Source of the DNA: Pleurocapsa sp. FMAR1
GTDB taxonomy: Bacteria > Cyanobacteriota > Cyanobacteriia > Cyanobacteriales > Xenococcaceae
NCBI RefSeq assembly: GCF_963665995.1
Contig: NZ_OY762512.1
Location: forward strand, 1,240,001 to 1,304,000
Direction of reading: 5' to 3'
DNA length: 64,000 nt
Both the position numbers and the translations under genes were made by a program. The notes beneath the pieces were generated by a model. The model made no database searches. It was not told the DNA's origin and saw only the letters and a program-made list of their open reading frames with translations. Shown here piece after piece: positions 24,378 to 24,875 of the stretch. Positions within the stretch are counted from its first letter, which is position 1. Every line of letters starts with the position of its first letter.

Positions 24378-24875
24378 ATGTCCGATCCTGATTTAGAAAA
24401 GTTATTGCGTCGTTTACATAATAATCTTGCCGAAGATAAACTGATTCAAACAATAACTAGCGATCTTAGAAAGAAACTTAGGGTAGATCGCGTAGCTCTC
24501 TATTACTTTTATCGTCAGTGGTCAGGAAGAGTGACTTTTGAATCGTTGAGTTCTAGTATTTATTCAATTTTAGGCTCAACTGGACCAGATGACTGTTTTA
24601 ATCAAGAATATGCCGATTTATATCAAGGCGGTAGAGTAAGTGCGATCGCTAATATCGAAACTGCCAATATTGCCGAATGTCATCGAGATTTTTTAAAAGA
24701 AATTCAGGTAAAGGCTAATTTAGTAGTACCAATTTTGATTCCTTCAGGACTTTGGGGTTTGCTGGTTGCTCATCAGTGCCAAAGTACTTTTTATTGGTCG
24801 GCAGAAGATATTCAGGCGATGCAAACAGGAGCAAGTAACCTCGCTGAAGCTCAGGCAATTCGTAACAACAAATAA
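24378..24875 (+). CDS. Stand-alone GAF protein with DXCF cyanobacteriochrome motifs
   Basis: A 165-residue protein that is essentially one GAF domain. It carries the two cysteines of dual-Cys cyanobacteriochromes: DDCF at residues 71-74 (Cys73) and the canonical bilin-binding Cys101-His102 in AECHRDFL. They are 28 residues apart, the same spacing as I recall for TePixJ. Flanking sequence fits too: EYADLYQGGRVSAI, VKANLVVPIL and LWGLLVAHQC. Known DXCF proteins bind phycoviolobilin or phycocyanobilin and switch between blue and green light. Here there is no kinase, GGDEF or methyl-accepting output domain, and only a short N-terminal helix. It is divergent from the NRPS. Bilin binding is predicted, not shown. 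Confidence 0.85.
   Translation: MSDPDLEKLLRRLHNNLAEDKLIQTITSDLRKKLRVDRVALYYFYRQWSGRVTFESLSSSIYSILGSTGPDDCFNQEYADLYQGGRVSAIANIETANIAECHRDFLKEIQVKANLVVPILIPSGLWGLLVAHQCQSTFYWSAEDIQAMQTGASNLAEAQAIRNNK

Follow-up and report, generated by a model that had tools for sequence, protein, structure and literature searches.

A widespread family of one-domain DXCF cyanobacteriochrome-type GAF proteins with a probable trans-acting role in cyanobacteria

A 64,000-nucleotide stretch of the Pleurocapsa sp. FMAR1 genome (contig NZ_OY762512.1, positions 1,240,001 to 1,304,000; hereafter the window) encodes a small protein that consists of a single cyanobacteriochrome (CBCR)-type GAF domain. Judged by sequence, domains of this kind, with both predicted bilin-linking cysteines in place, occur as one-domain proteins in many cyanobacteria, where they have been kept under purifying selection. 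The probable explanation, in our view, is a soluble DXCF cyanobacteriochrome of a 'short', effector-less type whose signal is passed on in trans (probability about 0.72). In most descriptions, a CBCR is a sensor module whose output domain sits in the same polypeptide. If one-domain CBCRs form a widely conserved family, they would be to bilins what the short BLUF and short LOV proteins are to their chromophores. Such a family would give a direct route to finding a light-switchable protein interaction in cyanobacteria and, for optogenetics, would offer a compact binding domain of natural origin that responds to blue light. In PMC5812497, a 'stand-alone photosensory GAF domain' is named as the mark of CBCRs as a class, which are often parts of large multidomain proteins. 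A description of a natural one-domain CBCR family was not found in the literature searched, outside which most subscription papers lie, and an earlier notice is possible.

The gene and its protein

The open reading frame (Table 1) is intact, with an ATG start, 165 codons and a TAA stop. A Pfam scan of the 165-aa protein placed a GAF domain (PF01590, E = 3.3e-15) at residues 20–158 and returned no other family above its cut-off. In agreement with the initial annotation, the translation contains a DDCF motif and a Cys101-His102 pair, with an interval of 28 residues between Cys73 and Cys101. Neither the Pfam scan nor the survey frames place a kinase, GGDEF/EAL or chemoreceptor domain in the chain. 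Both flanking genes were domain-scanned as well and provide no output domain: upstream, beyond 581 bp of intergenic sequence, a 1168-aa gene with AMP-binding, Condensation, PP-binding and Thioesterase domains runs divergently, while downstream a convergent 842-aa gene (Glyco_hydro_9, CBM_2) follows after a gap of 124 bp. With PF01590 alone above its cut-off and unrelated genes on either side, the earlier observation of a complete DXCF GAF domain without output domain is confirmed; since the chain lacks an output domain, the view that such a sensor needs a partner in trans is supported. The genome itself contains 15 matches to the window protein. Only that of the window gene has a short open frame, of 185 aa, whereas the remaining matches sit in frames of 698–1240 aa. 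A scan for sigma-70-type promoters gave 5 sites against 4.5 expected and thus no information.

Table 1 Features of the one-domain photoreceptor gene, in window positions
Feature	Position	Strand	Basis
CDS, one-domain DXCF cyanobacteriochrome, 165 aa	24378..24875 (including stop)	+	ORF list, Pfam, one-domain orthologues in 57/386 genomes
Helix alpha-1, residues 4–34	24387..24479	+	AlphaFold2 model, DSSP
beta-1/beta-2 hairpin, residues 41–58; family-specific at Tyr43, Tyr45, position 51 and position 53	24498..24551	+	Column comparison, 105 members vs 37 multi-domain GAFs
DDCF motif, Asp71-Asp72-Cys73-Phe74 (second Cys = Cys73, codon 24594–24596)	24588..24599	+	Cys73/Phe74 in 105/105, Asp71 in 90/105
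Canonical bilin-binding Cys101 (predicted), then His102	24678..24683	+	Kept in 105/105
C-terminal helix and tail, residues 142–165; other CBCRs continue into a linker	24801..24872	+	AlphaFold2/DSSP, stop-position comparison

An AlphaFold2 model computed with 45 family members (mean pLDDT 89.2, pTM 0.84) adopts the CBCR GAF fold. Its best Foldseek matches are CBCR GAF domains, including miRFP670nano (6mgh), 6oap and the blue form of TePixJ (4glq; TMq 0.78, 32% identity). The solved relatives closest by sequence to the window protein are likewise CBCR-type GAF domains; they come from kinases and chemoreceptors that we take to be CBCRs, partly on the basis of structure titles. The model thus predicts a phytochrome-type GAF fold with the capacity to hold a bilin.

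Distribution of the one-domain family

In a survey that ran the family profile against 386 genomes of the phylum and counted matches of at least 210 bits as members, 57 genomes had a one-domain member, with one copy each and frames of 165–213 aa free of internal stops. The next match below the family scored 177 bits in an 895-aa frame, and among those listed, the matches of 177 bits and below sat in frames of 383–2183 aa. A scan of named genome contigs yielded 65 related loci, 58 of them intact members; five multi-domain relatives (L074, L075, L076, L078 and L079) and two broken copies (L073 and L077) were left out of the family counts. Member labels include Pleurocapsaceae, Xenococcaceae, Microcoleaceae, Leptolyngbyaceae, Nodosilineaceae, Coleofasciculaceae, Oscillatoriaceae, Pseudanabaenaceae and Chamaesiphonaceae, and among the survey genomes listed the family was present in 30 of 42 from f6 and 10 of 11 from f7. 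The gene is absent from a second genome of the window's genus (G070) and is therefore dispensable. In two named members the open frame extends further upstream of the domain, to 267 aa in L019 and 266 aa in L053; in L082, a near relative of L019, the frame spans 208 aa. Given one-domain orthologues in 57 of 386 genomes and both cysteines in every distinct member (see below), chance is excluded as an explanation. What the initial annotation had treated as a single odd protein is thus one member of a widespread family, and its interpretation is partly supported: right in kind, for a family wider than stated.

None of four pattern matches in viral contigs was confirmed as phage carriage, and three members scanned against NCBIfam matched far below the cut-offs. 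Three plasmid records matched at 34–37% identity; two of them are annotated as proteins of larger types, and the third has no annotation. As for the broken copies, the orthologue at L077:6285-6691 (Tychonema sp. LEGE 07203) is interrupted around residue 95 by foreign sequence, presumably the start of an IS transposase, with no inverted repeats in the stretch examined; in L073 (Microcoleaceae MAG UBA11344), the frame is broken, with a gap in the Cys101 region.

Conservation and family-specific residues

Family matches above 200 bits numbered 117 and collapsed to 105 distinct sequences. Cys73, Phe74, Cys101 and His102 were each kept in 105/105, and the cysteines were spaced by 28 residues in 117/117 matches; position 71 was Asp in 90 distinct members, Ser in 11, Glu in 2, Asn in 1 and Arg in 1. 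Both cysteines were also found in 57/57 survey members and 58/58 named loci. Conserved homologues without either Cys had been named beforehand as evidence that would speak against the assignment; within the family, 0 of 105 distinct members lacked one, a count that leans towards Cys, as two of six contig-search patterns contain the cysteines and the survey profile was built from Cys-bearing members, so that a diverged Cys-less member would score lower. For comparison we used 37 multi-domain GAF domains, a mixed set made up of the best-scoring domains retrieved, GAFs from the window's own genome and domains of five additional loci. Here, both cysteines occurred in 32 and both together with His102 in 22, while 5 lacked one or both cysteines.

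The C terminus is similarly fixed. The stop falls 23–27 residues past Trp140 in 97/105 members and exactly 24 residues past it in 66, and after the last helix a terminal Pro159 is found in 68/105 and Ile161 in 86/105; in the 12 multi-domain CBCRs compared, the C-terminal helix continues past the family's stop position. Across 33 pairs without shared sequence, a simple counting method gave a median dN/dS of 0.18 (range 0.04–0.43), with 0.16 for the window gene against L017.

Positions were termed family-specific when a residue reached at least 80% by weight in the 105 members and stayed below 25% in the 37 multi-domain GAFs. This applied to Ser2, Leu13, Asp20, Leu22, Leu41, Tyr43, Tyr45, Gln51, Thr53, Leu57, Ser58, Ser67, Thr68, Gly69, Asn75, Ile98 and Ile161. 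Tyr43, Tyr45, Gln51 and Thr53 lie on beta-1/beta-2, and Ser67-Thr68-Gly69 together with Asn75 surround Cys73. The window protein deviates at two family-typical positions, with Arg51 for Gln and Gln159 for Pro. Tyr42, which we take to be the equivalent of the chromophore-facing Tyr176 of Cph1, is common to other CBCRs, and Phe44 largely so. From strand alternation we infer that Tyr43 and Tyr45 lie on the side opposite Tyr42 and Phe44 and, with Tyr42 presumed to face the chromophore, would thus point towards the helical side.

Phylogeny and comparison with known systems

A maximum-likelihood tree was calculated from 70 members (thinned from the 105), 41 multi-domain GAFs and three solved references. 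Alignment A1 comprised the window protein plus 44 of the 58 named loci that are intact. In the tree, the family formed one side of a branch with a support of 100/100 and a stem length of 0.79 (changes per column); the bootstrap had not settled completely (0.987). The nearest outside group (support 89/82) consisted of eight GAF domains from seven multi-domain proteins (L111, L112, L114, L115, L117, L120 and L122), all seven of which carry HATPase_c. More broadly, the nearest outside relatives by score and tree are the CBCR GAF domains of histidine kinases and GGDEF/EAL proteins at L111–L130, whose frames, unlike those of the one-domain family, span 383–1408 aa in the fetched stretches. Domain scans of 10 of these 20 loci plus L004 detected HATPase_c in 8/11 and GGDEF with or without EAL in 3/11.

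The GAF domain of TePixJ (PDB 3vv4, 4fof, 4glq) shares with the window protein the GAF fold, a second Cys within D-x-C-F, a canonical Cys-His pair and the 28-residue interval. In its sequence, D-P-C-F and E-C-H stand at this spacing, with a cysteine pair that we take to be Cys494 and Cys522. Unlike the window protein, however, it belongs, according to the PDB molecule name, to a larger protein of chemoreceptor type; the GSTG that precedes DXCF in the one-domain family is missing from its loop, and it falls on another branch of the tree, together with GAFs of the tandem-GAF proteins of the window's genome. In that genome, two adjoining ORFs of 1130 and 1240 aa (G000:C1:885208-891916) together contain nine matched GAF domains of CBCR-like type, several of which lack one or both cysteines. 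The best Foldseek match, miRFP670nano, is, like its NIR relatives, also a one-domain CBCR GAF, but it has no Cys at the DXCF position and does not occur naturally as a one-domain protein, having been derived by engineering from one domain of a CBCR (PMC6336887).

Chromophore and proposed mechanism

The same genome encodes one haem oxygenase and three ferredoxin-dependent bilin reductases, so that phycocyanobilin is very likely available in the host cell. As in the DXCF subfamily, an Asp-x-Cys-Phe sequence is found with its Cys 28 residues before the canonical Cys, and with Asp kept in 90/105 members. Position 69, two residues before Asp71 and presumably the Trp position of the W-x-D-x-x-L motif, is Gly in 99% of the family by weight, and this motif is therefore absent. 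It is described in PMC11284453 as the motif of extended red/green CBCRs. For the DXCF subfamily, PMC11284453 and PMC5578081 report isomerisation of phycocyanobilin to phycoviolobilin and an adduct at C10, and PMC5578081 lists teal, green and orange among the photoproducts. The 'blue/green' assignment of the initial annotation thus names only one DXCF photocycle; the family lies outside the TePixJ branch, and its sequence cannot tell green, teal and orange apart.

We propose that Cys101 would bind phycocyanobilin, perhaps isomerised to phycoviolobilin, and that Cys73 would add reversibly to C10 of this chromophore, so that one form would absorb blue light and the other light of longer wavelength. 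Photoconversion might then change the domain surface such that a separate protein is bound or released in one light state. This last step, the least certain of the three, is drawn by analogy; the helical side and the beta-1/beta-2 strip, both of which differ in the one-domain family, would be the likely contact surface. Short BLUF proteins, which bind flavin in a fold differing from that of CBCRs, resemble the proposed short CBCR as small light sensors, and the analogy is one of mechanism only, with action in trans through a separate protein being our proposal here. One-domain photoreceptors acting in this manner are exemplified by PixD-PixE and BlsA-Fur (PMC5955987).

Alternative explanations

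The kinase-rich sister group raises another kind of trans action, in which the domain would be a sensor subunit or decoy that pairs with the histidine-kinase GAF of a multi-domain CBCR and tunes the kinase by light. The HATPase_c domains of all seven proteins behind the eight sister GAFs are in line with this idea, as are several multi-GAF or kinase-type relatives in the window's own genome and the HATPase_c of L004. The changes at Leu13, Leu22, Tyr43 and Tyr45 and the ended C-terminal helix instead suggest that the helical pairing surface has been rebuilt, if the orientation that we infer is correct. We consider this explanation unlikely, though worth carrying along, and because of the kinase-rich sister group we keep a CBCR kinase open as the partner. 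Improbable to a greater degree is a bilin-storing, bilin-delivering or light-screening protein without any signalling partner: the chain lacks an output domain and no recurrent partner gene emerged from 101 loci, as such a function would allow, yet a dual-Cys site kept in 105/105 members exceeds the needs of a carrier, and the single copy per genome and the family-specific residues argue against it as well.

GAF domains in general bind ligands such as cyclic nucleotides, and a non-bilin ligand of this type could in principle be held here too. The nearest relatives by both sequence and fold are bilin-binding CBCRs, however, and with Cys73, Cys101 and His102 present in 105/105 members we assign this option very little weight. 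Two of the 60 family loci from the contig scan are broken, which might suggest that the gene has decayed from a larger photoreceptor or is a wrongly called piece of one. This is already refuted by the family data, namely stop-free one-domain frames in 57/57 survey genomes, the fixed C terminus and the median dN/dS of 0.18; nor is there a lost domain beside the window gene. The short DXCF cyanobacteriochrome signalling in trans thus remains our preferred reading.

Gene neighbourhood

A search for orthologues and their partners had been suggested at the outset; the orthologues were found as described, whereas the gene neighbours gave no partner. We compared 101 loci (58 intact and two broken loci from the contig scan, 40 further loci and the window), some of which share a genome and are not independent, and found no recurrent partner gene among them. 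The commonest neighbour cluster was seen in 17/101 loci. Among clusters present in at least five loci, those of f6/Nostocaceae were confined to f6/Nostocaceae, and those of Microcoleaceae extended just to Microcoleaceae, Oscillatoriaceae or unplaced loci. The exception was a response-regulator cluster found in five loci of three lineages, which was adjacent to the photoreceptor gene only in three f10 loci. Several clusters of three to four loci span differently labelled families, and the window shares no cluster that comprises at least three loci.

Names of neighbours (ndhH, Methyltransf_28, petH and the regulator) were obtained by scanning one representative each. In the three f10 loci (L190–L192), petH lies upstream and an OmpR-type response regulator 94–114 bp downstream, so that petH, whose product has a CpcD domain, the one-domain CBCR gene, the regulator gene and murD follow one another on one strand; the regulator is the nearest to an operon partner in these loci. 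In f6 loci, ndhH stands immediately upstream of the photoreceptor gene in 12 of 27 loci retrieved with wide flanks. A Methyltransf_28 gene follows immediately downstream in 9/101 loci, with a gap of at most 60 bp in seven. Because the gene stands between ndhH and Methyltransf_28 in some Nostocaceae-type genomes and between petH and a response regulator in another family, one might imagine an old effector-less CBCR class acting as a colour-dependent ligand of cyclic electron transport, setting NDH-1 or FNR activity by blue versus green light through direct binding, an idea that we regard as a long shot.

These contexts looked like a functional link, but for ndhH and Methyltransf_28 it is weakened, as the pair also adjoins without a photoreceptor. 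In G233, ndhH and the methyltransferase gene are 59 bp apart with no photoreceptor; in G101 and G385, the gaps measure 792 and 976 bp, and no photoreceptor remnant was found between the genes; in G203, the gap is 506 bp and the photoreceptor lies on another contig. The pairing is therefore independent of the photoreceptor. At L166:6378-9804 and in similar f6 loci, ndhH (NF005649) adjoins the Methyltransf_28 (NDUFAF7-type) gene with or without the photoreceptor between them. NDUFAF7 methylates the NdhH homologue of mitochondrial complex I, and the pairing of the two genes may thus be meaningful in its own right. The window's genome has two copies of ndhH (G000:C1:101046-102227 and 5423767-5424948) with equal scores and 82% identity each to the query, which are possibly identical duplicates.
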